From contig NC_011144.1 in assembly GCF_000017265.1 (NCBI RefSeq), positions 2,334,001-2,398,000 on the forward strand: 64,000 nucleotides of DNA, read 5' to 3'. The translations under genes were made by a program, and so were the position numbers. This document shows, one piece after another, positions 2,287 to 64,000 of the stretch; the first letter of the stretch is position 1; every line of letters begins with the position of its first letter. A model generated the notes under the pieces. That model was not told the DNA's origin and ran no database searches. It saw only the letters and a list, made by a program, of their open reading frames with translations. This DNA comes from Phenylobacterium zucineum HLK1 (GTDB lineage Bacteria; Pseudomonadota; Alphaproteobacteria; Caulobacterales; Caulobacteraceae).

Positions 2287-2297
2287 GGAAAAACCCT

Positions 2298-3395: not shown

Positions 3396-4486
3396 GCGAG
3401 GCTCCTTTCCCGCCTGGCGGCGGCTTCCTGCCTGAGGAGGGCGTCCACCTCGGCGGCCCGGCGGGCGTAGGTGTGCTCGGAGGCGATCCGCTGGCGCGCC
3501 GCCTCGCCGATGGCGCGGGCGCGCTCGGGCGTGAGGGCCTGCAGGTGCTCGGCCACGTCCTGGCCGTCCCGGGCCACCAGCACCTCCTCGCCCGGGGTGA
3601 GGAACAGCTCGATCCCCTCCCAGGCGTCGGTGATCAGGCAGGCGCCCGCGCCCGCCGCCTCGAACACGCGCGTCGCGGGCGAGAAGCCCACGTCGGCCAT
3701 GGAGTCCCGGGCGACGTTCAGCACCGCCCGACCCGAGCAGTTGAAGGCGTTGTGGTCGTTGGTCCCCACGTGGCCCAGGCGCCGGACGTTGGCCGGCATC
3801 GGCTTGTCGTCCCAGCCGTTGCCGCCCAGCACGAAGCGGCGGTCGGCGAGCCGTTCGGCGGGCTTGAGGAAGAACTCCTCGACGCGCGCTTCGCGGTCGG
3901 GCAGCCGGTTGGCCAGGAAGTTGAGGTCGCCCGCGAACCGCTCCTGCGAAGGCGCCGGGTGGTGGGTGGCAGGATCCAGGGCGTTGTAGATCGGCCGGCA
4001 CAGCCGGGCGCCGAAGCCTTCGTACGCCCGCACGACCGGCGGCCCGCCGCCGTAGGTCAGGACCATGTCGAGCTGCGGCAGCACCCGGTGCAACACCGCC
4101 TCGGGGCTGGCCCGCAGCTCCGCCAGGGTGGCCGGCGCGTCGACGTCCCAGAAGATTTTCACCGCGTGCGGCCGGGCGAGCGCCATGACGCCCTCCAGCA
4201 GCTCGTCGTCGAAGACCCCCACGCCGCTGGCCTTGACCACCACGTCGGCCTCGGCGGCCGCGCCCATCACCGTCTGCAGGGCCGTCTCGGTCGCCGGATA
4301 GACGACCACCTTCGCCCAGTCCGGCGGATCGATGTCGCGGTGCTTCTGCCGGTCGAAGGCGTCGGGCTCGTAGAAGGTCACGTCGTAGCCGCGCCGGGCC
4401 AGCTCGCTCAGCATGCCCCGGTAGTAGGTGGCCGCGCCGTTCCAGTAGGCGGACAGCAGGCTCGATCCATAGAAGGCGATCTTCAT
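3392..4486 (-). CDS. CgeB-like glycosyltransferase (second of three tandem paralogs)
   Basis: A 364-residue paralog of its two neighbours. It begins MKIAFYGSSLLSAYWNGAA, with the same Ser-rich-then-WNGxA N-terminal loop, and carries the C-terminal block RVFEAAGAGACLITDAWEGIE followed by FLTPGEEVLVA and a HTYARRAAEVD tail. ATGA overlaps couple it translationally at both ends. The three paralogs diverge mostly in the middle, as expected if each recognises a different acceptor in a sequential sugar assembly. Donor and acceptor are unknown. Confidence 0.8.
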   Translation of the reverse strand: MKIAFYGSSLLSAYWNGAATYYRGMLSELARRGYDVTFYEPDAFDRQKHRDIDPPDWAKVVVYPATETALQTVMGAAAEADVVVKASGVGVFDDELLEGVMALARPHAVKIFWDVDAPATLAELRASPEAVLHRVLPQLDMVLTYGGGPPVVRAYEGFGARLCRPIYNALDPATHHPAPSQERFAGDLNFLANRLPDREARVEEFFLKPAERLADRRFVLGGNGWDDKPMPANVRRLGHVGTNDHNAFNCSGRAVLNVARDSMADVGFSPATRVFEAAGAGACLITDAWEGIELFLTPGEEVLVARDGQDVAEHLQALTPERARAIGEAARQRIASEHTYARRAAEVDALLRQEAAARRERSLA

Positions 4487-5592
4487 CCGGCGACCTCGAG
4501 TTCGGGGGCGGAGAGCCGGCGGGCCACCGCCAGCAGTTCGTCGGCGCGGTGCGCGCAGGTGTGGCGGGAAAGGATGGTCTCCAGCCCCGAGCGGACGAGT
4601 TCCGCGCGCAGACCGGGATCTTCGCTCAGGGCGCGAAGATGCGACGTCATCTCGTTGGAATCCCTGGCGATCAGATAGTCACGCCCCGGGCGGAAGAGCG
4701 CCTCGGAGTCGCTCCAGGGGGCCGAGACCAGCGGGACGCCGCACGCCAGCGCCTCGAACACCCGGATCGTCGGGATGCCGGGCAGGACCTGGGTGTAGAA
4801 CCGCCGCGGCACGTGGACCGTGGCCAGGTGGCGGGCGAAGACCTGCGGCGCGCGGGCGTTCGGCAGCCAGCCGCGGTAGCGGGCGCCGTGCCGGGCCAGC
4901 ATCGCCAGCGCCGCCTTGGGATAGCGCACCCCGTAGACGTCGAGCGGCAGGCCCGCGGCCCGGGCCGGCGCGAACAGGAACGCCTCCAGCTCGGCCGTGC
5001 GCTCGCCGTCGCCCCAGTTGCCGATCCAGACGAGGCCCTCGCGCGGGCCCTCCTCGGCCGGCGGACGGAACAGGCGCACGTCGGCGGCCTCGTGCCAGGT
5101 GAAGACCCGGTCCTTCCAGCCCCAGCGCCGGTAGACCTCGGACAGCGTCTCGCCGAAGGCCAGCACGCCGTCATAGCCGGACAGGTCGAAGGCGCGGATC
5201 GCCTCGGGATCGCTCACCGCGCGGTGGTGGGTGTCGTGGAACAGCAGGGTGAAGCGCCCGCCCGCGGCCCGGCGGCGGCCGACGGCGGCGACCAGCTTCG
5301 GATCGTTCCACTCATGGACGATGACGAGGTCGGCGCCGTCCAGCGCGCGGTCGAGGTCGAGATCCGGCCCGAAGGTCTCGGACGCCAGCTCGGGATAGGC
5401 CTCGCGGTAGGCCGCGAGCCCGGCCTCGCCGTGATCGTCCAGCAGGTTCTGCAGGCTCCAGGCGCCCTCAGGCTCCAGGACGCGAACGTCGTGGCCGCGG
5501 GCGATCAGCTCGCGCAGCACGCCGCGCAGGAAGTGGGCGTTGCCGTGGTTCCAGCACGAGGCCAGGGAATGGGTGAAGTAGACGACCCTCAC
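4483..5592 (-). CDS. CgeB-like glycosyltransferase (first of three tandem paralogs)
   Basis: A 369-residue transferase beginning MRVVYFTHSLASCWNHGNA. The C-terminal Glyco_trans_1_2-like segment contains RVFEALACGVPLVSAPWSDSE followed by LFRPGRDYLIARD and ends with RHTCAHRADELL, closely parallel to the other two copies. Its ATG overlaps the upstream GT4 stop by 4 bp (bases 5589-5592). The HDTHHR segment in the middle resembles acceptor-loop sequences in CgeB-like enzymes. Role is inferred from the cluster: one of several sequential glycosyl transfers in the cytoplasm. Confidence 0.8.
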   Translation of the reverse strand: MRVVYFTHSLASCWNHGNAHFLRGVLRELIARGHDVRVLEPEGAWSLQNLLDDHGEAGLAAYREAYPELASETFGPDLDLDRALDGADLVIVHEWNDPKLVAAVGRRRAAGGRFTLLFHDTHHRAVSDPEAIRAFDLSGYDGVLAFGETLSEVYRRWGWKDRVFTWHEAADVRLFRPPAEEGPREGLVWIGNWGDGERTAELEAFLFAPARAAGLPLDVYGVRYPKAALAMLARHGARYRGWLPNARAPQVFARHLATVHVPRRFYTQVLPGIPTIRVFEALACGVPLVSAPWSDSEALFRPGRDYLIARDSNEMTSHLRALSEDPGLRAELVRSGLETILSRHTCAHRADELLAVARRLSAPELEVAG

Positions 5593-6689
5593 GCCGCCGC
5601 CTCCTGGCCGGCCCGGGCGAAGAGCTGCGGGCGAAGGCGGCGGTAGACATCCAACATGCCGGCGCTCATCGCCTGGACGGAATAGGTCCCCGCCCGGACC
5701 CGCGCCTGCTCGGCCAGCGCCGCGCGCGCGGGCTCGTCCGCCAGCAGGCGTTCGATGGCGCGAACGAAGGCGGCGGGATCGTAGGGATCGACGAAGACCG
5801 CCGCGCCCTCCCAGAGCTCGCGAAAGGTGGGGATGTCGGACAGCACGAGGGCGCAGCCGGCCTGGGCCGCCTCCAGCACGCCCAGGCCGAAGGGCTCATA
5901 GAGGGCCGAGGACGCGAAGATGGGCGCGCGCCCGAGCCACTCCGCCACCCTGCCCGCCGGCAGCCGCCCCAGCGCCTGGGCATGCTCCAGGCGGGTGCGC
6001 GCGCCGTTCGGCCCCTCGACGGGGCCCGCCGCGTAGAGCGGGACCGGAAGCCGAGCGGCGGCGGCGTCGAGGACGGCGAGGTTCTTGCCCTCGTCCCACA
6101 GGCGGCCGGAGGTGAATACCATCGCCTCGCGCTCGGCGGCCGCGACGTCCGCCGGGGTCCGCCCGTTCCACACCACCTGCGGCGCGGGCAGTTCGTAGGT
6201 GAGCGCCGTCGCCTCGGCGAAGGCGCGCGTCGGGGCGACCAGCACGTCGCAGGCGTGAAGGCCCTGCCACAGCGCCTGGGTCCGCCAGCGGAAGTCGTCG
6301 GGCATCGGGCCGTCCTTCACCGCCGCCCACCAGGTGGCGAGGCAGGAATGGCAGGCGCCCACCACCGGCGCCGGGAAGCCGCCGATCGCCGCCAGCGCCG
6401 GACTGTTCAGGTGGATCAGGCTTGCGCCGACCCCGCGGGCAAGGCCGCGAATGGCCGCGCCGACCTCCAGGATCTCGGCTGGCTCGGTGGCGGTCCAGTC
6501 CAGCGGCAGGCCGGTGTCGACCAGCTCCAGGCCGGCGACCTGCTGGGCGGCGCGCACCTGGTCGGCGCGCGGCGGCGGGCCCAGGTTCACCAGCGTGGTG
6601 CGCACGCCGGCGCCGGCGAGGCCGGCCGCAAGATCCAGGGCGTAGGTCCAGACGCCGCCGACGGCGTCGGCCGTCATCAGCACCCGCAT
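5589..6689 (-). CDS. GT4 family glycosyltransferase
   Basis: A 366-residue GT-B retaining transferase. The chosen ATG shares one base with the upstream stop (TGATG). The N-terminus MRVLMTADAVGGVWTYALDL is the glycine-rich acceptor-side loop of GT4 enzymes, and SSALYEPFGLGVLEAAQAG contains the EX7E-type donor-binding motif. A mid-protein GRLWDEGKNL stretch matches the linker strand of the C-terminal domain. Nucleotide-sugar-dependent and cytoplasmic; acceptor unknown. It sits between the epimerases and the CgeB-like trio in one coupled operon. Confidence 0.85.
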   Translation of the reverse strand: MRVLMTADAVGGVWTYALDLAAGLAGAGVRTTLVNLGPPPRADQVRAAQQVAGLELVDTGLPLDWTATEPAEILEVGAAIRGLARGVGASLIHLNSPALAAIGGFPAPVVGACHSCLATWWAAVKDGPMPDDFRWRTQALWQGLHACDVLVAPTRAFAEATALTYELPAPQVVWNGRTPADVAAAEREAMVFTSGRLWDEGKNLAVLDAAAARLPVPLYAAGPVEGPNGARTRLEHAQALGRLPAGRVAEWLGRAPIFASSALYEPFGLGVLEAAQAGCALVLSDIPTFRELWEGAAVFVDPYDPAAFVRAIERLLADEPARAALAEQARVRAGTYSVQAMSAGMLDVYRRLRPQLFARAGQEAAA

Positions 6690-7735
6690 CAGGCGGCCTC
6701 GACGGGGCGGCGCGCCGTCCCGGCCGGTCCGCGCTCGGCCGCCAGCCACCGGGCGAGGTCGGCGACGCCTGCGCGCCAGTCGCGCGGATCGGCGAGCTGC
6801 AGCGCCTGCTTGGCCGCGGACGGATCCGAGACGTAGTAGCGCTGGTCGCCGGCGCGCCAGTCCGAGAACCCGACCTCGACCTTCCGGCCGATCACCTCCT
6901 CGATGTAGCCCAGCAGCTGCAGCAGGCTCACCGCATTGCCGGGGCCGCCGCCCAGGTTGAAGGCGCGACCGGCGACCTCCTCGATGCGCCGCCAGGCGGC
7001 CATGTAGGCGTCCACCGTATCGCCGACATGCATGATGTCGCGCACCTGCCGGCCGTCGCCGTAGACGACGATGGGCTGTCCCTCCAGGGCGCGGATCAGG
7101 AAGTGGGCGACCCAGCCCTGGTCCTCGGTGCCCATCTGGCGCGGGCCGTAGATGCAGCTCATCCGCAGGACGCAGGTGGGCAGGTCGAAGCTGCGGGCGT
7201 AGTCCAGCACGTACTGGTCGGCCGCCCCCTTGGAGCAGCCGTAGGGCGTGTGGAAGTCCAGCGGCCGGGCCTCGGAGACGCCCCGCGCGCGCAGGTCCGC
7301 ATCCTTGGGACGATAGGCCTCGCCCGCGAGCTCCAGCGGAACGTCCGCCAGGTCGCCGTAGACCTTGTTCGTGCTGGCGAAGATCACCGGCGTGCGGCGC
7401 CTGCGCGCCGCCTCCAGCACGTTCAGCGCGCCGCGGACGTTGATCTCGAAGTCGTCCATGGGCTGCACGAGGCTGGTGGTCACCGCCACCTGGGCCGCCA
7501 GGTGGAAGATCACCTGGACGTCCCGGGCCGCCTCGGCGACGGCGCGGGCGTCCCGCACGTCGGCCTGGACGCTGGTGATCTTGCGGCCGTGCCGGGCCTT
7601 CAGCCAGGCGAGGTTCCGCTCGACCCCGGGCCGCGCCAGCGCATCGAAGACCACGACCTCGCAGCCCTCGGACGCCAGCCGGTCGGCCAGGTTGGCGCCG
7701 ATGAAGCCCGCCCCGCCTGTGACGAGCGCCCTCAT
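6689..7735 (-). CDS. NAD-dependent epimerase/dehydratase, CDP-paratose/tyvelose epimerase-like
   Basis: A 348-residue extended SDR beginning MRALVTGGAGFIGANLADRL, with YGCSK as the catalytic YxxxK. The signature regions FASTNKVYGD, MSCIYGPRQMGTEDQGWVAHF and the C-terminal RAGDQRYYVSDPSAA are typical of the CDP-paratose 2-epimerase/RfbE branch that inverts C2 of a nucleotide sugar. The start overlaps the upstream stop by 4 bp. It probably makes one of the unusual donor sugars used by the downstream transferases. The actual nucleotide and sugar are not determinable here. Confidence 0.8.
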   Translation of the reverse strand: MRALVTGGAGFIGANLADRLASEGCEVVVFDALARPGVERNLAWLKARHGRKITSVQADVRDARAVAEAARDVQVIFHLAAQVAVTTSLVQPMDDFEINVRGALNVLEAARRRRTPVIFASTNKVYGDLADVPLELAGEAYRPKDADLRARGVSEARPLDFHTPYGCSKGAADQYVLDYARSFDLPTCVLRMSCIYGPRQMGTEDQGWVAHFLIRALEGQPIVVYGDGRQVRDIMHVGDTVDAYMAAWRRIEEVAGRAFNLGGGPGNAVSLLQLLGYIEEVIGRKVEVGFSDWRAGDQRYYVSDPSAAKQALQLADPRDWRAGVADLARWLAAERGPAGTARRPVEAA

Positions 7736-20264: not shown

Positions 20265-21671
20265 TCACCTGCGGCCGCGGGCGACGAGGGCCTCAAGCCC
20301 CGGATCCGGCGTGTCGGACGGCCGCGCGCCGTAGGCGGCCGGGGCCGGCAGAACCTCTCCGAACAGCCGCCCCGCCACGGCGGCGGCGTCGAACGCCGGG
20401 CCGCTGTCGTCCTCGGCGCGGCGGACCGAGATCAGCGCCAGCACGTCCCGGCGGCTGGCGCCTCGCCCCTTGGTGGAGAGGCCCGGAACCGGCGCCGCCG
20501 TGAGCGAGCCGGTGCGCGTCTTGCGGCGGGTCAGCGAGCCGGTGGAGCCCACGACCACCGCCTTGCCGAAGGGCACACGGGCGGAGGCCTCGACCCGCGA
20601 CTTGTCGGTCTGCAGGAGGCTCGCGCCGCGGCCGGCGTTGTTGACGCTCTGGCCGGTGATGTTCGACAGCTCCAGCGCCACCGTCAGGTCCACGTCGTGC
20701 TCCCCGATCCGCTCGGGCGTCACCTCGAGCGAGATGCCGACATCCCGCTCCACCGGATCGCTGTCGTCGGACAGCGGCACGATCAGCACCGAGCCCCCCT
20801 CCAGGAACTTCGACGTCTTGCCCTGCCGCGCGAGCACGACGGGGCTCGCCTCGAGCGAGACCCGCGAAAGGTCGCGGCTGGCCAGGTTCAGGGAATAGGT
20901 CACCGCCGGCAGGGTGACGGTCACCTGGCCGTCTGTCCCTTCATCCTCCCCGCCGTAGCTGTAGTTGACGAGGGTCCCCTCGAACTGCAGGGCCAGGCTC
21001 TCCAGCAGGTTGACGCCCTCGTTGAAGTTGGCGCTGCGCGTGTCGCGGATCAGGAACGCCTCGATGAGGATGTTGCGTTCCTCGTCGGCCGCGACGGGCG
21101 GCCGCGCAGCCGGCGCCGGCTGCGGGCGCCAGGCCTCGCCCCCGGCGAACGCCTGGCGAAGGAACGGCGCCTCGCCGCCGGCCGCCTCGGCCTGCCGGAA
21201 GGCGAGCCGGGCGAGCTCGGGCTCCTGCGCGCGGTAGGCCGCCAGCGCATAGGGCAGCGCCAGGTCGCCGAGGCCGCCACGCCGCTCGGCCGCTTCGGAC
21301 AGCGCCGCCAGGGCCTCCCGGTATTCGCCCAGGCGGTAGTGCGCCGCCGCGAGCGCCGCCATCGGCTCCCACAGGTCGGGCGCCAGGCGGCCCGCTGTGC
21401 CGAAGGCGCTCTTGGCGAGCTCGACGTCGGCGCGCGTACGGCCGGCCCGCTCCATCAGCGCAAGGCCCGTGGTCAGGTGGGCGCGCGCGTTCAGCGGCTC
21501 GCGCCGGGCGGCGTCGAAGCCAGCCGGCTCGCCCGGGACGCCGGCCAGCGCCATCGACCGTTCGAGGCCCGGGGCGGCGCACCCGCCCATCGTCGCGGCG
21601 AGCGCCGCCAACGAGACGGCGAACGCGGCCGCCCGTCGGTCCCGCGCACTGTTGCGAGCAAATCCGTCCAC
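20265..21671 (-). CDS. Secretin-domain lipoprotein (type II/III secretion system family-like)
   Basis: A 468-residue protein. The GTG at 21671 is chosen because GGGGGA lies 5 nt upstream and it places a signal peptide (RRAAAFAVSLAALAAT) before a lipobox-like MGG-Cys31. TPR-like helices follow (about 50-170). The second half has strand-rich secretin features: GGSVLIVPLSDDS, ISLEVTPERIGEHDVDLTVAL, then VPFGKAVVVGST and a C-terminal APVPGLSTKGR before VLALISVRR, which parallels the end of secretin domains. It is shorter than gate-forming secretins. The CCCAT-N4-ATGGG site at 21730-21743 lies at its promoter, linking it to the four-Cys proteins. Confidence 0.6.
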   Translation of the reverse strand: MDGFARNSARDRRAAAFAVSLAALAATMGGCAAPGLERSMALAGVPGEPAGFDAARREPLNARAHLTTGLALMERAGRTRADVELAKSAFGTAGRLAPDLWEPMAALAAAHYRLGEYREALAALSEAAERRGGLGDLALPYALAAYRAQEPELARLAFRQAEAAGGEAPFLRQAFAGGEAWRPQPAPAARPPVAADEERNILIEAFLIRDTRSANFNEGVNLLESLALQFEGTLVNYSYGGEDEGTDGQVTVTLPAVTYSLNLASRDLSRVSLEASPVVLARQGKTSKFLEGGSVLIVPLSDDSDPVERDVGISLEVTPERIGEHDVDLTVALELSNITGQSVNNAGRGASLLQTDKSRVEASARVPFGKAVVVGSTGSLTRRKTRTGSLTAAPVPGLSTKGRGASRRDVLALISVRRAEDDSGPAFDAAAVAGRLFGEVLPAPAAYGARPSDTPDPGLEALVARGRR

Positions 21672-21729
21672 CACCGTCCCCCGTGTCAGCCCAGCCGACG
21701 CGATAGTCAGCGGGACGGCTGAGGGACAT

Positions 21730-21743
21730 CCCATGTTTATGGG
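21730..21743 (-). promoter_or_regulatory. CCCAT-N4-ATGGG operator before the secretin-like lipoprotein
   Basis: Perfect 5-4-5 palindrome CCCAT-GTTT-ATGGG. Read on the minus strand it is followed directly by ATGTCC, a possible -10 element in the same position as the GATAC element after the sites in front of the three four-Cys genes. It begins about 59 bp before the chosen GTG start. Confidence 0.55.
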
Positions 21744-21753
21744 ACCGCCGTGG

Positions 21754-23682
21754 CTAGGAGACGGCTTCGCGCTCGGTCCCCTGCCCCGCCCCCTGCCCCA
21801 CCCCCTGCCCCACCGGGGCGGCCGGCAGCCGCAGGACGACGCTGGTCTCGCCGTCGGACCGGCCGACGGTCAGGCTCGCTCCCAAGCGCTCGGCCCTGGC
21901 TTTCATGTTGCCGAGGCCGCGCCCGGCTCCCTCCGCCTCGAACGGCGCGTCCGCGAGCTCCTGCCCGTCGTCGCGCACGGCGACGACGACGCCGTCCTCG
22001 TCGGCGAAGACCTCGACCCGCACCCGCGTGGCGCGGGCGTGCTTGACCACGTTGGTGACCGCCTCCTGGACGATGCGCAGCACGTCGAGGGCCTGGGCCG
22101 GGCCCAGGGTCTCCAGCGCCGGCACGTCGCCGACGCGCCACTCCAGCGTCAGGCCCGAGGCGCGAAGCTGCGGTTCGGCGCGCTCGCGCCAGGCGCCGAG
22201 CACCAGCGACAGATCCCCGCCGTAGTCCTCCAGCGAGCCGATGATCAGCCGCATGTCGGTCAGGGCGGCGCGGGCGTGGCCGGCGATCTCGCGGTGCGAC
22301 GGGTCCGGGCTGTCGGCCAGGGCCAGGATCGAAGCCAGCTCCCCGCCCAGCCCGTCGTGCAGGTCGCGCATCAGGCGCGCGCGCTCGCGCTCCACGGCCT
22401 CCGCCTCGCGGCGGGCGCGCAACTCCTCGAAGGTCTCGCGCAGCTGGGCCTCGACCTCGGCCACCCGCTCGCGCAGCACGTCCGCCGTCTCGTCCACCTT
22501 CCGCATGGCCCGGATGAAGCGCAGGGTCATCAGGGTGGCGACGGTCGCCAGGAAGCCCGTGTAGGCCACCCGCATCAGGAAGACCCGCGAGGGATCGGCG
22601 GTCGCCACCATCATCACGTCCCGCGCCAGGAACACGAGCACCATGACGAGGCCCAGCGAGACCAGCAGCGCGTCGCGGTCCCCGCGGAAGGCGGCGCGAA
22701 GCAGGATCAGGGTCGAGGCCGTGAAGTAGAGGGCGACCGTCGCCACCGCCGCCCGCAGGACCCAGAAGACGACTTCGGGCGGCGGCCAGGCGACGAAGAT
22801 GGCGGTGAAGGCCAGCGGGGGGACGGCCAGCAGCCAGCTCCAGCGGCCCGGCCGCTGGCCGCTCAGGACCCGGCAGAACATCAGCGTCGCGGCCGCCTCC
22901 CAGCCGACCAGGACGTTCCAGAACGGGCGCTCCAGCGCGCCCAGGCCGAAGTCGGGAATCAGCACCGAGCCGCGCAGGGCCGCCAGCATCATGGCGGCCG
23001 CGAGCCAGCCGAACTCGGTCTCCCGCGGCCGCGCCACCCAGATCAGGCCGAACATGCAGGCCAGGGCGATCTCGGCGCCGACGGCCACCGTGGGCGCGAC
23101 CGCCGCCGCGAACCACCGGGCGTGGTAGAACGGCCGCAGCTTGTCCCTCGGGCCGATGAAGATGCGGTCCAGGGCGATCGGCCGGCCCGGCCGCGCCGAG
23201 ACCATGATCTTGAACTGGTTCGCTCCCGGCTCCAGCACCTCGGCCAGGTTGGGCACATAGGCCGGCAGGGTCGCGAACCTGAGGTCGCGCATCATGTACA
23301 GCTCGGCCATGGCGATGCGCCGCCCGTTCACCTGGATCGCCACCGCATCGGCGAAGGAGGGGATCAGGAGCGCCGCGTCCCGCGCCTCGTCCTTCGTGAG
23401 CCGCAGCTCGAAATCGCACTCCAGATGGCTGCGGTCGCCCGGGTTCGACCGCGTCGCGAACGGCAGATGAAAGATCTTGGCCTGGCCTTCGAACGCGTCG
23501 GGGACAACGCGCCGGCACTCCACGGTCTGGACCGCAAGGCTGTAGTCGGGCTCGCGCGAGGCGGTCAGCATGCTCGCCACGCCCAGCAGCGCCAGGACCG
23601 CGATCATCCAGCCGAGGGCGATCGCCTGGCGCCATGCCGCCGTCGAGGCGGACCCGCCGCTCAGATCCGGATCAGGCCGCAC
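21754..23682 (-). CDS. Sensor histidine kinase, NarX/UhpB-type with jelly-roll sensor and 7TM region
   Basis: A 642-residue kinase. The GTG start at 23682 overlaps the response-regulator end and has GAGG 7 nt upstream; an internal ATG at 23607 is the alternative. After a first membrane segment (about 18-40) comes a periplasmic beta-sandwich (residues about 45-190, with IQVNGRRIAM and GANQFKIMV), then about seven membrane helices, a coiled coil and the HisKA_3 box RLMRDLHDGLGGELASILAL. The ATPase has IVQEAVTNVVKHA (N box), VRDDGQEL and GRGLGNMKARA (G boxes). The C-terminus has short Gly-Gln repeats. It phosphorylates the adjacent NarL-type regulator. The ligand is unknown. Confidence 0.85.
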   Translation of the reverse strand: MRPDPDLSGGSASTAAWRQAIALGWMIAVLALLGVASMLTASREPDYSLAVQTVECRRVVPDAFEGQAKIFHLPFATRSNPGDRSHLECDFELRLTKDEARDAALLIPSFADAVAIQVNGRRIAMAELYMMRDLRFATLPAYVPNLAEVLEPGANQFKIMVSARPGRPIALDRIFIGPRDKLRPFYHARWFAAAVAPTVAVGAEIALACMFGLIWVARPRETEFGWLAAAMMLAALRGSVLIPDFGLGALERPFWNVLVGWEAAATLMFCRVLSGQRPGRWSWLLAVPPLAFTAIFVAWPPPEVVFWVLRAAVATVALYFTASTLILLRAAFRGDRDALLVSLGLVMVLVFLARDVMMVATADPSRVFLMRVAYTGFLATVATLMTLRFIRAMRKVDETADVLRERVAEVEAQLRETFEELRARREAEAVERERARLMRDLHDGLGGELASILALADSPDPSHREIAGHARAALTDMRLIIGSLEDYGGDLSLVLGAWRERAEPQLRASGLTLEWRVGDVPALETLGPAQALDVLRIVQEAVTNVVKHARATRVRVEVFADEDGVVVAVRDDGQELADAPFEAEGAGRGLGNMKARAERLGASLTVGRSDGETSVVLRLPAAPVGQGVGQGAGQGTEREAVS

Positions 23683-24386
23683 TGGACCGCCTCGTAGACC
23701 GCCTCGCCTCGGGTCGCGACCTGGAGCTTGCGATAGATGGCCTTGATGTGGCTGGGAACGGTGTGGCGCGAGAGGCCGAGCCGGTCGGCGATCTCGTTGT
23801 AGGTCAGTCCCTTGGCGATGCCCCAGAGGATGTCCAGCTCGCGCGGGGTCAGGTGGGGCGCCTCCTGCACGGGGGCGGGACGCGCGCCGCTTTCGGCGCG
23901 GGCGCGCTTGACGATGAACCGGGCGATCGAGGGGGAGATGGGCGAGCCTCCCGCCAGCACCTCGAGCGCGGTCGCATGGACGTCCTCGGGCAGCGCGTCC
24001 TTCAGGATGTAGCCCGAGGCGCCGGCCGCGATGGCCGCCAGGATGGTGGTCTCGTCGCCGAGGACCGAGATCACCAGGATCTCCACCTGCGGATAGCGTT
24101 CCCGCGCCTCGGCCAGCAGGTCGATGGCCAGGCCGTCGGGCAGCCGAATGTCGGCGACGATCAGGTCGAAGGCGCGCGCCTCCAGGAGCCTGCGCCCCTC
24201 GGCGAGGGTCGCCGCGGTCGAGACCGCGCAGTCGCCCGGCTCGGACAGGGCCGCCGCCAGACGCTCGCGGATCGCCCGCTCGTCCTCCACCAGGAGCACC
24301 TGATGGGTCCTGCCGCCTCCAGCCCCCGCGCCGACGCCCATTCCGGCCCCGGCCGCCCCGGCGCCCACTGCCTCGTCCCCCGCCAT
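23661..24386 (-). CDS. NarL/LuxR-type response regulator
   Basis: A 241-residue regulator. The receiver domain has VLLVEDERA (acidic pocket), DLIVADIRLPDG with the phospho-acceptor Asp, and GASGYILKDA with the switch Lys. The C-terminal LuxR HTH contains LTPRELDILWGIAKGL and LSRHTVPSHIKAIYRKLQV. The first 25 residues are an unusual Gly/Ala-rich leader, so the real start may be an internal codon just before HQVLLVEDE. It shares an overlapping junction with the kinase gene. A tandem palindrome at 24424-24451 lies in its own upstream region, consistent with autoregulation and control of the divergent four-Cys gene. Confidence 0.9.
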   Translation of the reverse strand: MAGDEAVGAGAAGAGMGVGAGAGGGRTHQVLLVEDERAIRERLAAALSEPGDCAVSTAATLAEGRRLLEARAFDLIVADIRLPDGLAIDLLAEARERYPQVEILVISVLGDETTILAAIAAGASGYILKDALPEDVHATALEVLAGGSPISPSIARFIVKRARAESGARPAPVQEAPHLTPRELDILWGIAKGLTYNEIADRLGLSRHTVPSHIKAIYRKLQVATRGEAVYEAVQCGLIRI

Positions 24387-24423: not shown

Positions 24424-24451
24424 CCCATGAATATGGGACCATGGTCATGGG
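24424..24451. promoter_or_regulatory. Tandem CCCAT-N4-ATGGG operators between response regulator and four-Cys gene 1
   Basis: Two abutting 14-bp sites: CCCAT-GAAT-ATGGG (24424-24437) and ACCAT-GGTC-ATGGG (24438-24451). GATACT follows at once as a plausible -10 element for the plus-strand gene, so the sites would overlap the -35 region. The same pair, with more drift in the distal site, precedes the two other paralogs. Confidence 0.6.
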
Positions 24452-24526: not shown

Positions 24527-25066
24527 ATGCGCATCCTATTCATGGCCGGGGCCGCCGCGGCCGTGCTCGTCACCACGCCCGCCACGGCGAAGGAGCTGCA
24601 CTGCAACGTCCGCAAGGACATCGTCGACCAGATCGACGGCAAGGAGCTCAAGCTGATCAATGAGAAGTACAACATCAAGGTCAAGGACACGTACACGAAG
24701 AAGAAGGACCGGGTGACGAGCAACGACTACAACAAGTTCGTCCACATCAAGTTCGGGGAAGAACTGTCTAAGGACTACTGGACCAACGTGCAGATCCGCC
24801 CGCGCACCAGCGGCGAATGCCTCAACAGGATCACCGGAAGCGACAGGCGGTACGGGGACGTCGACATGTGGTCCGGCGCCTACTGCGACACCCGGCAGCA
24901 CAAGCGCGCCGGGAAGCTTGGAATGGAGCCGACCGCCACGCCCGACAGGCTCTGGGTGGCCGTGGGCAAGGCGTTCACGACCACGAAGATCAGCCACTTC
25001 GCGAGCTTCTGGGATGACACTCACGACGGGTTCGTCCTCGTGGGCGTCTGCGTCGAGAACAAATAG
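24527..25066 (+). CDS. Secreted four-cysteine protein, paralog 1
   Basis: A 179-residue protein of no family I recognise. It has a Sec signal peptide (MRILFMAGAAAAVLVTTPATA, cleavage near residue 21), then a mature domain with four cysteines conserved in all three copies, in the contexts LHCNV, ECLN, AYCDT and VCVENK. Two disulfides and a periplasmic or extracellular location are likely. Conserved surfaces include IDGKE, KVKDT, DYNKFVHIKFG, IRPR and the C-terminal CVENK. Lysine and charged residues are abundant. It is preceded by the tandem operators, a -10-like GATACT and a hairpin leader, and there is a hairpin downstream (25095-25135). Confidence 0.8.
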   Translation: MRILFMAGAAAAVLVTTPATAKELHCNVRKDIVDQIDGKELKLINEKYNIKVKDTYTKKKDRVTSNDYNKFVHIKFGEELSKDYWTNVQIRPRTSGECLNRITGSDRRYGDVDMWSGAYCDTRQHKRAGKLGMEPTATPDRLWVAVGKAFTTTKISHFASFWDDTHDGFVLVGVCVENK

Positions 25067-25094
25067 CGCCCCTCACGCCGCCTCGACGGCGCGC

Positions 25095-25135
25095 GGGTCT
25101 GCGGCGGAGGCGCATCAGCCCACCGACGCAGACCC
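25095..25135 (+). terminator. Hairpin after four-Cys gene 1
   Basis: GGGTCTGCG (25095-25103) pairs perfectly with CGCAGACCC (25127-25135) across a 23-nt loop. There is no T tract and the right arm runs into the operator of gene 2, so a role as a terminator or attenuator is tentative. Confidence 0.35.
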
Positions 25136-25138
25136 GGT

Positions 25139-25166
25139 CCCATGATCGGGGCGCCATCTTCATGGG
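25139..25166. promoter_or_regulatory. Tandem operators before four-Cys gene 2
   Basis: Distal site CCCAT-GATC-GGGGC is degenerate on its right arm; proximal site GCCAT-CTTC-ATGGG is intact on its right arm and is followed by ATAC. Layout and spacing to the conserved leader match the other two paralogs. Confidence 0.5.
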
Positions 25167-25205
25167 ATACAGTCCGGCCGCGGCCCGGCGCATGTCCTCA
25201 TCCCA

Positions 25206-25218
25206 CCCCGATCCGGGG
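25206..25218 (+). promoter_or_regulatory. Conserved 5' leader hairpin, paralog 2
   Basis: CCCCG-ATC-CGGGG, same sequence and similar distance from the ATG as in paralogs 1 and 3, followed by ATCGAGGTACGAC before the start codon. Confidence 0.45.
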
Positions 25219-25239
25219 GGACGCACATCGAGGTACGAC

Positions 25240-25776
25240 ATGCGCATCATCGTCACCGCCGCGGCCGCCGCCGCGCTCCTGGCCGCCGCGCCCGCTGCCG
25301 CCAAGGAGATGCACTGCAACGTCGATCGGGACATCGCCGGCCAGATCGACGGCAAGGTGGTCAAGCACCACGGCACGACCTACCGGCTGAAGGTCAAGGA
25401 CAAGTTCAAGGGGACGCCCGACGGCGTGTCCACCCGGGACTACAACCGGTTCGTCAACGTCAAGTTCGGAACGGAGAAGTCACCGCTGCACGACCCCAAC
25501 ATCAACGCGCGCGTCCGGCCACGCCGTGGGGACGAGTGCCTCAACCGCATCGAAGCGATCCACCCCGACCAGGTCGTTCCGCTCTGGGAGGGCGCGCACT
25601 GCAACACCAAGCAGCACAAGAAGGCCGAAGCGGTTTGGCTGGTTCCGATCGGGGAGCCGATCTTCTGGGGCGTCGGCGCCGCCCGCACCACCACGAAGGT
25701 CAGCCATTTCGCCACCCTGTATGTGAAGCAGGACGATGGCTACCACCTGAGCGGCGCCTGCGTGGAGAACAGGTAG
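25240..25776 (+). CDS. Secreted four-cysteine protein, paralog 2
   Basis: A 178-residue paralog starting at the ATG embedded in the shared CGAGGTACGAC-ATG context; an in-frame ATG at 25162 falls inside the operator and is rejected. The signal peptide is MRIIVTAAAAAALLAAAPAA. The mature part keeps the four cysteines (MHCNV, ECLN, AHCNT, ACVENR), IDGKV, KVKDKFKG, DYNRFVNVKFG, VRPR and TTTKVSHFA. It shares the KG-TPDGVST/GVPDSVST loop with paralog 3, which paralog 1 lacks, so 2 and 3 look most closely related. Function unknown; secreted. Confidence 0.8.
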   Translation: MRIIVTAAAAAALLAAAPAAAKEMHCNVDRDIAGQIDGKVVKHHGTTYRLKVKDKFKGTPDGVSTRDYNRFVNVKFGTEKSPLHDPNINARVRPRRGDECLNRIEAIHPDQVVPLWEGAHCNTKQHKKAEAVWLVPIGEPIFWGVGAARTTTKVSHFATLYVKQDDGYHLSGACVENR

Positions 25777-25786
25777 CCGCGCAAGG

Positions 25787-25827
25787 CCCGGACGCCGGGG
25801 CGGCCAAGGCTGCCCCCGGCGCGCCGC
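25787..25827 (+). terminator. Imperfect hairpin after four-Cys gene 2
   Basis: The GC-rich stretch contains CGCCGGGGC upstream of a complementary GCCCCCGGCG and could form a strong stem just after the stop. No T run follows, so termination is uncertain. Confidence 0.35.
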
Positions 25828-25836
25828 CCCCGCCAT

Positions 25837-25864
25837 CCCATGAACGGGGGACCATGGTCATGGG
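25837..25864. promoter_or_regulatory. Tandem operators before four-Cys gene 3
   Basis: CCCAT-GAAC-GGGGG (distal, degenerate right arm) and ACCAT-GGTC-ATGGG (proximal, identical to the proximal site of gene 1), followed by ATACCC. Same geometry as the other two copies. Confidence 0.55.
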
Positions 25865-25902
25865 ATACCCGCAATCGGCCGAGCGGCGCATTTCCTCGCC
25901 CA

Positions 25903-25915
25903 CCCCGATCCGGGG
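25903..25915 (+). promoter_or_regulatory. Conserved 5' leader hairpin, paralog 3
   Basis: CCCCG-ATC-CGGGG again, followed by a CCGAGGTACGAC start context. Third instance of the leader element. Confidence 0.45.
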
Positions 25916-25939
25916 GGAACGCACACACCGAGGTACGAC

Positions 25940-26467
25940 ATGCGCATCATCTTCACCGCCGCGGCCGCCGCGGCCCTCATGATCGGCACGCCCGCCCTGG
26001 CCAAGGACATGCACTGCAACGTCAACAAGGACTTCGCGCCGATGATCGACGGCAAGGAGGTCAAGTCGGGCGGCACGACCTACAAGTTCAAGGTCAAGGA
26101 CACGTTCAAGGGCGTTCCCGACAGCGTGTCGACCAGCGACTACAACGGCTTCGTCAACATCAAGTTCGGCGCCGAGCGGACGACGAGCAAGTCGGTGAAC
26201 GTCCAGGTCCGCCCACGCAAGTCGAGCGAATGCCTGAACGGCGTCTACGACGACAACAAGAAGCAGATCTGGGGCGGCGCCTACTGCGACACCAGCAACC
26301 ACAAGAAGGCGTCCAGCCTGACCCTTCGGAAGTCGGACTCGAACCCGGCGCTGTACATCGCCGCCGGCGCCGCGACGACCACCTCGAAGCAGAACCACCT
26401 CATGGGGCTCTACACGCTCCAGGGCTCGGAGTACGTGCTCTCCGGCGCCTGCGTCGAGAACAAGTAG
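25940..26467 (+). CDS. Secreted four-cysteine protein, paralog 3
   Basis: A 175-residue member of the tandem family: signal peptide MRIIFTAAAAAALMIGTPALA, then MHCNV, ECLN, AYCDT and ACVENK cysteine contexts, IDGKE, KVKDTFKG, DYNGFVNIKFG and VQVRPRKS. The TTTKxSHFA block is altered to TTSKQNHLM. No enzymatic motif is seen. Net charge, disulfides and small size could suit a secreted binding, inhibitor or surface-layer protein, but that is speculation. A strong hairpin follows. Confidence 0.8.
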   Translation: MRIIFTAAAAAALMIGTPALAKDMHCNVNKDFAPMIDGKEVKSGGTTYKFKVKDTFKGVPDSVSTSDYNGFVNIKFGAERTTSKSVNVQVRPRKSSECLNGVYDDNKKQIWGGAYCDTSNHKKASSLTLRKSDSNPALYIAAGAATTTSKQNHLMGLYTLQGSEYVLSGACVENK

Positions 26468-26534: not shown

Positions 26535-26789
26535 CTAGAAGAACCGTTCGCCGATGCGGATGGTGTCGCCGGGCGCGACCTGGGTGGTGCTGGTCAGGGG
26601 GAAGGATTCCTCCTCGTCCCCATCGGCGCGCTTGATGAACACCTTGTTCTTGTTGGCCCGGTAGGTGAAGCCCTCGGCGGTGGCGACGGCGTTCAGCACC
26701 GTCAGCCCGTTGGTGTAGGGGTACTCGCCCGGCTTGTTGACCTCGCCGTCCGGATCGAACGGAGGACCTCCAGAGCCACAATCTCCCAC
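26535..26789 (-). pseudogene. 3' remnant of a polysaccharide export protein gene (Wza-like)
   Basis: Only the last about 70 residues of a Wza/SLBB-type outer-membrane export protein are present: GEVNKPGEYPYTNGLTVLNA followed by AEGFTYRANKNKVFIKR and the natural terminus GDTIRIGERFF. Homology starts abruptly near base 26747. The upstream 14 codons (MGDCGSGGPPFDPD) have no relation to the family and no signal peptide or export domain precedes them. The surviving part is free of stops or frameshifts, so truncation appears recent. It borders the recombinase-like gene, and may mark the edge of an inserted segment. Confidence 0.7.
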
Positions 26790-26935: not shown

Positions 26936-29089
26936 ATGGACGAGAGATGGCGCGACCCCGCGCTCGGGCGGCGCATGGCCGACTTCGCGCACCGACGCGC
27001 GAGCGCGCTCCTCTCGCCGCCGGAAGCGCGCGCCTTGAGCGACTACCTCCAGCAGCTGGTCCGCGAGGGACGCGCCCCGCCGCCGCGCGGCCGCGGCTTC
27101 GACTGGCGCGCCATCGCCGCGGCCACGGCCATCCCGCTCGAGAGCCTGCAGCGGGCCCGCGACGGCCTGCTCCCCGGCCTGCAGGCGCTCCGCCGCGAAC
27201 TGCGCAAGCCGCCGAGGCTCCGCCCGCCCCGCCCCCCACGGGGACGCCCCTGCGGGCCCATCGAGGACCTGCCCCCCGCCGCCCACGACCCCACGCCCGA
27301 GCCGGCGGCCTTCCACCTGTCCCTGGCCCGGCAGATGCGCCGACACGGCGACACCGTGCACGGCCTGACCCGCTGGCTGCGCGCCAAGGGCCACCCCACG
27401 GCCCGAGGCACGCTGAAGGCCTGGCTGCGAGGGACCAAGGCGCCGCGCCACCGCGACAGCCTGGCCGTCCTCGCCCGCCTGGAGACCCGCTGGGGCCTGG
27501 CGGCCGGCCATTTCCGCGCCAGGCTGCCCCATCCGGGCCGCGCCGTCGCCGGCCAGAGGCTGGAGGCCGTCCCCGAAAGCGAGCGCCGGCACCTCGCCTG
27601 GCACCTGCCCGAGGATTTCGACCGCCGCCCCGCCACCGAGCAGGAGGAGATCCTGGCCTGGGTGCACCGGGTGATCATGCGCGGCGCCACCGACTACCGC
27701 CGCTACCAGGCCTTCGCCGTGCGCGCCCGCTACGGCCTGCGGTTCCCCGGGCTCCAGCCGGTCGGCGAGGCCGCCCGCCTCGCCCCGCCTGGCCTTACCG
27801 CCGAGGTCGAGGCGCTGGTGGCCTTCAAGACCGCCCGCTTCGCCCCGGTGGGCCTCGCGCGCGAGGGGGTCTGGTCGGCGGCGACCGCCGGCCAGAAGGC
27901 GACCCATCTGGGCCTCTTCTTCGGCGCCCTGGCGGCCGCCCCCGAGGGGCCGGCGCGCGGCTACGGCGCCCCGGCCGAGGCCTTCACCCTGGCCATGCTG
28001 GTCTTCCCGCGGCTCTGGGACTGGCACCTGGCCTGGCGCGAGGCGCGTCGCGGCTTCTTCACCGCCTGGGAGTACGACATGCTGGCCTTCGCCCGCAGTC
28101 TCACGGCCGCCCAGACCGGCTGGCTCACCCAGTCGCCGCAGCTGGCGCAGCGACTTTCCCCCCTCCCCGGCCTGATCGAAGCCTCCGACATCGCCCGGGC
28201 GCAGGCGGACTGGGCGCGGGCCTGCGCCGACTTCCATCGCCATGCCGGCGTCCGGCGCCGCGAGATCGACCGCCTGCGGCGCGTCCACAACGATCCCTTC
28301 GAGCCGATCGCGCCCGTCCTGGAGGCCCAGAGCCCGCTCGGCGAATACCGCAAGATCGCCGAAGAGGTGGCGCGCCGGCGGCCCTGTCCCCGCCGCTATC
28401 CCCTGGCCGCGGCCGAGGCCAGCCGGGCCGTGCTGATGATCCGGCTGGGCCTGCACCTGGGCTTCCGGCAGCGGAACCTGCGCGAGCTGCTGGTCTGCCG
28501 GCGCGGCGCCCGGCCGCGATCGGAACGGGAGCTTGCGGAGCTGCGGCGCGGGGAGCTGCGCTGGAGCGAGAGGGCGGGCGGCTGGGAGGTGTTCGCGCCG
28601 TGCCTGGCCTTCAAGAACGCCCGCTCCTCGTTCTTCAGCGGCCGGCCGTATCGCCTGGTCCTGCCGGACGTGGCCGGCCTCTACGACGAGATCGAGGCCT
28701 ATCTGGCCGAGGCGCGGCCGCGCCTGCTGCGCGGCGCTGACGATCCCGGGACGTTCTTCGTCAAGACGATGAAGTCGCCGAACGGCGCGGCGGCCTACGA
28801 CGGCACGGCCTTCTACCAGGCCTGGCGATGGATCATCCAGCGGCACGGGGTCTTCAACCCCTGGACGGGCCGCGGCGCGATCGCGGGCCTCCTGCCGCAC
28901 GGGCCGCACAGCGTGCGCGACGTGCTCGCCGCCCATGTGCTGAAGCACACCGGCTCCTTCGAGCTTGCGAGCTATGCGATCCAGGACACGCCCGAGACCG
29001 TGGCCCGCCACTACGGCCGGTTCCTCCCTCAGGACAAGGCGGAGCTGGCCGGGCGGGTGCTGAACGCCGCCTGGAGCGATGAAGACTGA
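26936..29089 (+). CDS. Tyrosine-recombinase-like protein with N-terminal HTH-like region
   Basis: A 717-residue protein. The C-terminal third matches the tyrosine recombinase catalytic layout: Arg511 in LGFRQRNLREL, Lys560 in CLAFKNARSS, HSVRD with His658 and Arg661, then YAIQDTPETVARHYGRF with nucleophile candidate Tyr693. The position normally occupied by the second His/Trp (LGH) is AIQ, so the active site is non-canonical. Residues about 115-170 (LARQMRRHGDTVHGLTRWLR, then TLKAWLRGTKAP) look like a DNA-binding helix-turn-helix. The first 100 residues are very Arg/Pro rich. It is not paired with obvious att sites here. An integrase or a domesticated DNA-binding relative are both possible. 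Confidence 0.65.
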   Translation: MDERWRDPALGRRMADFAHRRASALLSPPEARALSDYLQQLVREGRAPPPRGRGFDWRAIAAATAIPLESLQRARDGLLPGLQALRRELRKPPRLRPPRPPRGRPCGPIEDLPPAAHDPTPEPAAFHLSLARQMRRHGDTVHGLTRWLRAKGHPTARGTLKAWLRGTKAPRHRDSLAVLARLETRWGLAAGHFRARLPHPGRAVAGQRLEAVPESERRHLAWHLPEDFDRRPATEQEEILAWVHRVIMRGATDYRRYQAFAVRARYGLRFPGLQPVGEAARLAPPGLTAEVEALVAFKTARFAPVGLAREGVWSAATAGQKATHLGLFFGALAAAPEGPARGYGAPAEAFTLAMLVFPRLWDWHLAWREARRGFFTAWEYDMLAFARSLTAAQTGWLTQSPQLAQRLSPLPGLIEASDIARAQADWARACADFHRHAGVRRREIDRLRRVHNDPFEPIAPVLEAQSPLGEYRKIAEEVARRRPCPRRYPLAAAEASRAVLMIRLGLHLGFRQRNLRELLVCRRGARPRSERELAELRRGELRWSERAGGWEVFAPCLAFKNARSSFFSGRPYRLVLPDVAGLYDEIEAYLAEARPRLLRGADDPGTFFVKTMKSPNGAAAYDGTAFYQAWRWIIQRHGVFNPWTGRGAIAGLLPHGPHSVRDVLAAHVLKHTGSFELASYAIQDTPETVARHYGRFLPQDKAELAGRVLNAAWSDED

Positions 29090-29192: not shown

Positions 29193-29260
29193 TACAGACA
29201 AACCTCTCGATGGTGTCTGTAATTGGATGTATACAGACACGATACAAGGACCTGTCTGTA
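29193..29260 (+). promoter_or_regulatory. Four alternating TACAGACA/TGTCTGTA half-sites
   Basis: TACAGACA at 29193-29200, TGTCTGTA at 29214-29221, TACAGACA at 29232-29239 and TGTCTGTA at 29253-29260. The central pair extends to a perfect 9-bp inverted repeat, GTGTCTGTA with TACAGACAC, at 29213-29240. Successive half-sites are 21, 18 and 21 bp apart, about two helical turns. The last one touches the start codon of the nucleotidyltransferase gene, so a bound protein would block its expression. Confidence 0.6.
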
Positions 29261-30252
29261 TGTCCCTCGACACCCTTTCACCGGCCCTGCAGACCTTGTT
29301 CGCCGAGCTGCTGCAGCAGACGGAAACCGCGCCGCAGGCCGGTTCGGTCTACCGCCGGACGCTCGCCGGCGGCGAATACATCTACGCCAAGGTTCCCGTA
29401 GGGGCGACGCGCATCGACCGCTTCGTCGGCAGGAGCGGCGACCCGGAGGCGGAAGCCCGCGCCGCCGCCTTCCAGCAGGGCGCCCGGCTGGCCGCCCAAC
29501 GCCGGCGGCTCGTGGGGATGCTGCGACGTGAACGGCTCTCGGCGCCGGATCGCACCACCGGGGCCGTGCTCGACGCCCTGGCCCAGGCGGGCCTGTTCCG
29601 GGCCGGAGCCGTTCTGGTGGGCACCGCCGCCTATCTCCTCAGCGAGCCGCTTGTCGGCGCACGCCTGCCGTCCGCGACCTTGATGACCGCGGACCTAGAC
29701 CTTGCAGCGGCCAGCGTCGCCCTTGCAGCGGAACCGCCCGAACCGCTCGAGACCATCCTCAAGCGGGCGGATCCCTCCTTCGAGGGCGTGCCGCAACTGA
29801 CGCCGAAGGCGCCGCCGTCACGATACCGCAACGCCCAAGGGTACCTCGTCGACCTCGTCACCCCCACCCGCACGCGGAACGACTCCAACCCCGTGCCGCT
29901 CCAGGGGCTGGACGCCGGCGCGGCCCCTCTCCAGCACCTGGCATGGCTGATCGAGACGCCTGTGCGCACGGTCTCGCTCTGGGGAGCCGGGGCGGCGGTG
30001 ACCGTGCCGCACCCGGCCCGCTTCGCGACCCACAAGCTGATCCTCGCCCAAAAACGGGACGGCGCCGGCCGCCTGAAGCGCGCGAAGGATCTCGCCCAGG
30101 CGCGCGCCCTCATCGAGGCCCTGCAGACGCAGGATCCCTTCGCCCTCGAAGACGCCATCCAGGACGCCGCCGGACGGGGGGAGAGTGGATGGCGCGCGCC
30201 CCTCATGCGATCGCTGAAGGAGCTTGGCCTCGTCCACCTCCTCGAAGGGTGA
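29260..30252 (+). CDS. GSU2403-family nucleotidyltransferase-fold protein
   Basis: A 330-residue protein. The ATG at 29260 is preferred to the one at 29227 because AGGA lies 9 nt before it. VLVGTAAYLLSEPLVGARL, then TLMTADLDLAAA gives the helix-plus-Asp-x-Asp signature of the GSU2403 nucleotidyltransferase fold. PHPARFATHKLILAQKRD is the second conserved block. The N-terminal YRRTLAGGEYIYAKV, GATRIDRFVG region is typical of this family. Members sit beside helix-turn-helix proteins in mobile or defence-like contexts; molecular target unknown. The four-half-site operator overlaps its start. Confidence 0.7.
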   Translation: MSLDTLSPALQTLFAELLQQTETAPQAGSVYRRTLAGGEYIYAKVPVGATRIDRFVGRSGDPEAEARAAAFQQGARLAAQRRRLVGMLRRERLSAPDRTTGAVLDALAQAGLFRAGAVLVGTAAYLLSEPLVGARLPSATLMTADLDLAAASVALAAEPPEPLETILKRADPSFEGVPQLTPKAPPSRYRNAQGYLVDLVTPTRTRNDSNPVPLQGLDAGAAPLQHLAWLIETPVRTVSLWGAGAAVTVPHPARFATHKLILAQKRDGAGRLKRAKDLAQARALIEALQTQDPFALEDAIQDAAGRGESGWRAPLMRSLKELGLVHLLEG

Positions 30253-63883: not shown

Positions 63884-64000
63884 ATGGCGGCGCAGCAGGG
63901 TCAGGGCGCGGGCCGCGCCTTGGAGGGCGTGACGGTCATCGACCTCACCCACATGCTCTCCGGCCCCTACGCCACCATGCTGATGGCCGACCTGGGCGCC
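63884..64000 (+). CDS. CaiB/BaiF family CoA transferase, 3' end outside window
   Basis: The first 39 codons of a type III CoA transferase: after MAAQQGQGAGRA comes LEGVTVIDLTHMLSGPYATM, LMADLGA, the standard N-terminal signature of the family. It is the second such enzyme in the window, and its promoter carries the TTGCATNCAA-like site, so it probably belongs to the same GntR regulon. Nothing can be said about its catalytic region from this window. Confidence 0.85.
   Translation, partial: MAAQQGQGAGRALEGVTVIDLTHMLSGPYATMLMADLGA

Follow-up and report, generated by a model that had tools for sequence, protein, structure and literature searches.

A 64,000-nucleotide stretch of Phenylobacterium zucineum HLK1 (contig NC_011144.1, positions 2,334,001 to 2,398,000; hereafter the window, numbered from its first letter) carries three tandem genes for small secreted-type paralogs with four conserved cysteines, here called the trio. 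They diverge from genes for a response regulator, a sensor histidine kinase and a secretin-domain lipoprotein. We propose a secretion cassette that is controlled by this two-component system, with the trio as its lineage-specific cargo and with an outer-membrane channel of its own, a reading for and against which we find the case evenly balanced. It is built on the signal peptides, conserved cysteines and gene order of the locus, on palindromes common to the trio and the secretin gene, and on the presence of such a gene set in one other genus, all read from the DNA.

The first-pass annotation of the window had described three tandem paralogs, and three consecutive plus-strand genes were found: paralog 1 (24527–25066, +, 179 aa), paralog 2 (25240–25776, +, 178 aa) and paralog 3 (25940–26467, +, 175 aa). 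The mechanical open reading frame (ORF) of paralog 2 begins at 25162; alignment of its leader and N-terminus with the others moved the start to 25240. Paralog 3 is 54% identical to paralog 2 and 47% identical to paralog 1. Used as a query against its own genome (4,379,231 bases in contigs of 3,996,255 and 382,976), it recovered the other two at E 3e-54 and 8e-47, so that the similarity is not due to chance, and no fourth copy, the next row being at E 0.5. The motifs that the annotation listed (HCNV, IDGK, KVKD, DYN-FV-(I/V)KFG, ECLN, (A)YC/HC-T and CVEN(K/R)) are all present, and the likeness that it saw between the 5′ leaders corresponds to fully conserved blocks. The four cysteines are invariant across the trio and all four are also found in a distant relative in another genome (G160, see below), which makes two disulfides per protein plausible. 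By eye, each trio protein begins with what appears to be a Sec-type signal peptide that ends near AK(E/D), and the distant relative also has such a peptide; that the trio proteins cross the inner membrane, the secretion proposed in the first-pass annotation, is highly likely.

The divergent genes lie on the minus strand. The NarL/LuxR-type response regulator (23661–24386, −) has Response_reg (69.7 bits; cut-off 30.2) and GerE (56.4 bits; cut-off 23.5) domains and diverges from paralog 1. The sensor histidine kinase (21754–23607, −; start uncertain) has HisKA_3 (24.5 bits; cut-off 24) and HATPase_c (47.2 bits; cut-off 26.4) domains, and probably a seven-transmembrane (7TM) sensor, 7TMR-DISM_7TM reaching 27.6 bits, below its cut-off of 29. 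The secretin-domain lipoprotein, a putative outer-membrane channel (20265–21674, −), has a C-terminal PF00263 domain (35.5 bits; cut-off 27.5). Its ORF is open from an ATG at 21734, with the likely start at GTG 21674 or 21671. A lipoprotein-like start, MGGC, was recognized as a lipobox by eye, and the front half is TPR-like (matches below cut-off); secretins of this type are called here, by a label of our own, TPR-like secretins. Pfam at E up to 1 found none of the N0/N-domains typical of GspD and PilQ in this protein, and no inner-membrane platform or ATPase gene was recognized by eye in the window gene list, of which most genes were unscanned. Regulator and kinase are 53 bases apart, and the secretin gene probably starts about 80 bases beyond the end of the kinase gene; the three apparently form one operon diverging from paralog 1.

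Putative operators were located at 24424–24451 (paralog 1 and the divergent regulator operon), 25139–25166 (paralog 2) and 25837–25864 (paralog 3). All have the form CCCATGA-N14-TCATGGG, which occurs with zero mismatches at three places genome-wide, one before each paralog, and with up to two mismatches at 15, against one for a control pattern. The core CCAT-N4-ATGG is found six times in the window, as opposed to a mean of 0.32 in shuffled sequence (largest value 3 in 100 shuffles): four times in the trio leaders (two of them in the first), at 21731 between kinase and secretin, and at 63975 elsewhere. The longer CCAT-N4-ATGGGA, counted over about 464 kb of P. zucineum, has five sites in the window (24425, 24439, 25154 and 25852, as well as the palindrome TCCCAT-N4-ATGGGA at 21729–21744, between the kinase stop and the probable secretin start), all upstream of trio genes or the secretin; 400 kb of control chromosome contain no such site. 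Between the end of a site and the start codon there are about 75 bases at the trio genes and about 57 at the secretin gene, counted to its probable start. The site at the secretin gene, which played no part in finding the core, is the more telling one. Judging from these elements, the trio and the secretin are very probably co-regulated. Control by the adjacent kinase, proposed in the first-pass annotation, is supported at the level of sequence by the divergent regulator-kinase operon and by the palindrome before all three genes. As a whole, that earlier interpretation is partly supported, by sequence for secretion and kinase control, and so far also for an unrecognized fold; it missed the palindrome at the secretin gene, and the presence of this further site changes the likely mechanism.

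In the mechanism proposed here, the membrane kinase would sense a signal and activate the NarL-type regulator, which would bind CCAT-N4-ATGGGA before each cargo gene and before the secretin gene, giving joint production of cargo and channel. Having crossed the inner membrane by the Sec route, the cargo would be folded and oxidized in the periplasm as an all-beta domain. It may pass the outer membrane through the secretin lipoprotein, a step that we regard as somewhat doubtful, or be held at the surface by it, perhaps after recruitment by the secretin's TPR-like front half. Its role there may be that of a structural, adhesive or binding protein.

Trio-type proteins and secretins are also linked in one other genome of the class, G160 (L028). 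Here, only 10 bp separate the trio relative (5740–6270, −) from a secretin gene downstream of it (4215–5729, −). The product of this gene is lipoprotein-like, shares 26% identity with the window secretin over 284 residues (E 3e-16) and has a TPR match below cut-off only. In the trio relative, the four cysteines are retained, as are the RPR and TT-K blocks and the C-E-N-K end. It has six cysteines in all; the extra two align with V6 and V30 of mature paralog 3 and would suit one further disulfide. The cargo-secretin pair (L028 4215–6270) is flanked by an ORF resembling a large helicase (1777–4194, by eye) and a phosphoesterase-like gene (6460–7149, weak Pfam match), and resembles an insertion into a DNA-repair-type cluster; the flanking genes are unrelated.

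The trio family is nearly orphan. Searching the genus at E up to 0.1 gave matches in 9 of 101 genomes, the own genome included. The eight others (E 0.006–0.083) were dropped as relatives; they fall within positions 1–52 of the 178-position profile, which cover the signal peptide plus the beginning of the mature sequence, and no credible relative was found in the 100 other genomes. The class search at E up to 0.01 matched 3 of 385 genomes, namely the own genome, G160 (9e-10) and G249 (0.004, over 46 positions), with G160 containing the sole confirmed relative among the 384 others. A profile including the G160 protein matched the own genome alone when run against 398 genomes of the phylum. None of the pattern matches in two scans of genome contigs (0/273 and 0/303) or of viral contigs (0/57 and 0/168) was confirmed. 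With paralog 3 as the query, plasmids gave a single match, at E 0.5, and with the G160 protein they gave no match; phages searched with paralog 2 gave no relative. No Pfam or NCBIfam family reached its cut-off for the trio: LipL71 (NCBIfam) for paralog 1 was dropped at 17.5 bits against a cut-off of 600, as were weak Pfam matches far below cut-off. The best PHROGs match of four mature sequences was at E 0.011, and PADLOC returned no match for nine proteins. The literature that was searched, with most subscription journals outside its coverage, contained no description of this gene set.

An AlphaFold model of the mature domain of paralog 3, computed from the four mature sequences, has twelve strands and one short helix, with a mean predicted local distance difference test score (pLDDT) of 85.3 and a predicted template-modelling score of 0.82; an earlier model of the trio domain, with pLDDT 72.7, was likewise without clear match. 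Foldseek found nothing in the PDB at E 0.001 or below (best 0.037). The best VIA-align match, to an Asf1 chain, had Z 5.5 and a root-mean-square deviation of 3.4 over 95 residues, which is middling by the tool's own note. The best BFVD match was at E 0.005, and the best match of the trio sequence to solved structures at E 0.58. Asf1, other beta-sandwich proteins, GH2 beta domains, lipocalins and phage fibre-like proteins appear only as weak rows and were not accepted as relatives. The domain is thus predicted to be all-beta without clear structural match, which does not by itself imply a new fold. The earlier statement that fold and family are unrecognized stands so far, after family, homolog and AlphaFold-based searches.

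The mature parts of the trio have proportions of nonsynonymous differences (pN) of 0.35–0.39 and of synonymous differences (pS) of 0.34–0.43. Fourfold sites are alike at 31/47, 27/38 and 20/39 positions, with 23.0, 18.6 and 19.2 expected at saturation. For the secretin orthologs of P. zucineum and another Phenylobacterium genome, G104, pN is 0.28 and pS 0.47, and 106 of 196 fourfold sites are alike versus 98 expected. The trio proteins may have changed fast relative to synonymous sites; the evidence for this is weak, because a GC content of 92–98% at third codon positions (GC3) depresses pS.

Relatives of the kinase were detected in 9 of 100 genus genomes (E up to 1e-20) and in 6 of 385 class genomes (E up to 1e-30), the own genome being counted in both. 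All 13 other kinase loci were read with their flanks; some end at contig ends, and that of G095 comprises a partial kinase and the downstream side only. A secreted-type neighbour is present at 12 of the 14 loci (the window and the 13 others), from unrelated cargo families; G088, where the contig ends early, and G164 have none. When close relatives were merged, 9 of 11 groups had such a neighbour (chance 0.004, a rough figure).

The whole gene set recurs in G157 and G383, which represent one genus of another family, in the order regulator, kinase, secreted protein, secretin. The regulator is 49–50% identical to that of the window, and the G383 secretin, which has no TPR match, aligns over its full length with the window secretin at about 25% identity. 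The cargo proteins have 383–390 aa and seven cysteines, one of them inside the signal peptide; G157 has one copy and G383 two, 68% identical to each other. Each of these three cargo genes has CCAT-N4-ATGG upstream, and when their promoters were aligned with the four of the window, CCAT, ATGG and the following AT were invariant in 7/7. By profile comparison, the cargo of G157/G383 and that of G031 have no detectable kinship to the trio (E 0.47 and 0.28), and the 13 kinase regions contain no match to the trio profile at E up to 1.

Other kinds of cargo occupy the same place elsewhere. In G175 (L129 7843–17699, +), a regulator with 50% identity and a kinase are followed by a 1790-aa two-partner secretion (TPS) exoprotein and then by a ShlB/POTRA exporter, which shows that a cargo with a dedicated exporter of known type can occupy this slot. 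The exoprotein contains DUF5650 repeats in eleven stretches. In G012 (L100 2573–4975, −), three tandem PEP-CTERM paralogs diverge from the regulator-kinase operon, each with a ATCACCCAAACAGGTGA palindrome in its leader; the pattern ATCACC-N6-GGTGA occurs four times in this genome, three of them in the PEP-CTERM leaders. G031 and G002 encode a secreted protein with eight cysteines and have this pattern in the divergent intergenic stretch, as well as at five other places in G031 and one other in G002. In the other five genomes searched, the matches to this pattern lie away from the kinase contig or locus. Moreover, PEP-CTERM genes are found at the kinase locus of G079 (two) and G095 (one). G496 has two proteins of the secreted type, and one of these contains a ricin-type lectin domain. 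In G016, the secreted protein has 153 aa, and CCAT-N4-ATGG occurs once in the divergent stretch. Finally, a convergent secreted gene is found in G091.

Secretin relatives are more widespread (E 1e-5; 31/385 class genomes and 5/100 genus genomes, own included), and some, judging from their neighbours, appear to be ordinary pilus secretins. No trio relative was found in larger regions of 20 of the 30 non-own class genomes with a secretin match, nor in four genus secretin regions, and that of G160 was the only one found at 30 short secretin loci (L029–L058). Three of 24 regions in the survey of secretin neighbours lacked a called secretin and were dropped. The secretin is not tied to trio-type cargo, though secreted neighbours recur. 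Among these neighbours, secreted pentapeptide-repeat proteins with CxLCDLRY adjoin secretins at L062 and L065 (Pfam) and at L060, L063 and L064 (by eye), and an NMT1_3-type binding protein lies on the other side of the secretin in several loci, confirmed for L062 and otherwise seen by eye.

Several observations weigh against the trio being the cargo of such a cassette. Secretins usually belong to larger machines. The G104 secretin is 59% identical to that of the window and lies beside bufferin-type genes (BufB/BufC-type), with no trio relative in the 19 kb read there, and with neither a kinase relative nor a regulator of more than 32% identity nearby. For G160, no kinase or regulator was recognized by eye in the 15 kb read, and only 2 of the 13 other kinase loci (G157 and G383; 8–20 kb read) have a secretin relative. 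The core CCAT-N4-ATGG occurs eight times in the 400 kb control chromosome, is also found away from cargo genes in L028, L101 and L130, and is absent from the 19.5 kb read in G175. The longer CCAT-N4-ATGGGA was picked after the sites had been seen. The rule used to call signal peptides is crude and permissive: it flags 72 of 337 P. zucineum control genes, a LysR gene also having been flagged. It flagged a flank in 9 of 12 kinase-called loci, and L098, L099 and L103 were judged by eye. With regard to G104 (L084 7825–10834, −), the secretin ortholog and the end of a DUF2063 gene overlap, and the latter is preceded by an MbnB/TglH/ChrH-type gene, in what we take to be an operon of the bufferin type with the secretin at its end.

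Three other explanations were considered. The trio adjoins the kinase operon and has an operator region in common with it, and neither Pfam nor NCBIfam detected a surface-anchor motif in the three proteins, as might be expected of periplasmic feedback or accessory sensors that are controlled by the kinase, interact with a ligand or with the sensor domain, and modulate the signal without ever leaving the cell. We consider this unlikely: the G160 relative is paired with a secretin in a region where, by eye, the 15 kb read showed no kinase, the secretin gene of the window bears the same palindrome as the trio, and relatives of the kinase adjoin unrelated cargo. The common palindrome, together with the secretin neighbourhood in P. 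zucineum and the 10-bp pair in G160, would equally suit parts or assembly factors of the secretin (a plug, a pilot or a periplasmic ring), the real substrate being encoded elsewhere. This is quite unlikely in our view, since the divergence of the three copies, and the unrelated secreted family that takes their place in G157 and G383, fit swapped cargo better than a machine part, and since the 19 kb read around the G104 secretin contain no trio relative.

The near equality of pN and pS is reminiscent of proteins that follow changing targets, and the trio could be a lineage-specific envelope defence family, for example an inhibitor of an enzyme or toxin, with the closeness of the secretin incidental. 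That ratio is weak evidence at the GC3 values given above, and both the palindrome at the secretin gene and the finding that a second lineage has the gene set as well speak against this explanation, which we regard as very unlikely.

We therefore retain the cargo of a regulated secretion cassette as the preferred reading. More generally, and only as a tentative suggestion, secretin lipoproteins with a TPR-like front might represent a minimal pathway of one outer-membrane channel that works independently of type II, type III and pilus machinery and exports dedicated, disulfide-bonded, Sec-delivered cargo, within a conserved kinase-regulator-operator cassette whose type of cargo and exporter is exchanged between lineages. 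If the cargo reading is correct, a near-orphan family gains a testable role, and a group of secretins beside which no machine was seen here gains candidate cargo. It would then also exemplify how a signalling system can be kept through the replacement of what it causes to be secreted. Together with its exchangeable cargo, the operator beside this kinase-regulator pair would offer a handle on secreted proteins that are invisible to homology searches.

Directly after the trio, an 84-aa SLBB-domain ORF (26535–26789, −; 33 bits, cut-off 27) resembles part of polysaccharide-export proteins and is possibly a fragment. It is followed by a 717-aa ORF (26936–29089, +) without a Pfam match at E up to 0.1, the C-terminal end of which, by eye, we take to be tyrosine-recombinase-like. 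The nucleotidyltransferase PF12281 at 29227–30252 adjoins this ORF, and the two are a possible trace of a mobile element beside the trio.

The window system resembles several known ones in part. The window secretin has in common with GspD, PilQ and CpaC, the secretins of type II/III secretion and type IV pili, a C-terminal secretin domain above the Pfam cut-off; it differs in its TPR-like N-terminal part, its lipoprotein-like start and the lack of an N-domain match, and scores far under the cut-offs of the two NCBIfam secretin families listed. In curli, the LuxR-type regulator CsgD, the outer-membrane lipoprotein channel CsgG and small secreted paralogs such as CsgA form a similar set. This is an analogy only, as Pfam scans of the trio and the secretin gave no curli family. 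PEP-CTERM surface proteins occupy the same place in G012 as a tandem trio, each with ATCACC-N6-GGTGA; the window trio is unlike them in having no PEP-CTERM match in Pfam or NCBIfam and a C-terminus of the CVEN(K/R) type. BmfSR of Rubrivivax gelatinosus likewise combines a 7TM histidine kinase with a LuxR-type regulator, and the pair is reported to be positively involved in extracellular matrix production (PMC3684757); the likeness is one of description, and BmfSR is betaproteobacterial and described around the extracellular matrix. Two-partner secretion (TpsA/TpsB, FhaB/FhaC type) also places dedicated cargo beside a dedicated outer-membrane exporter. Unlike TpsA proteins, the trio has no TPS-domain match, and the linked channel is a secretin instead of a ShlB/POTRA protein; in G175 a two-partner pair sits behind a related regulator-kinase pair.

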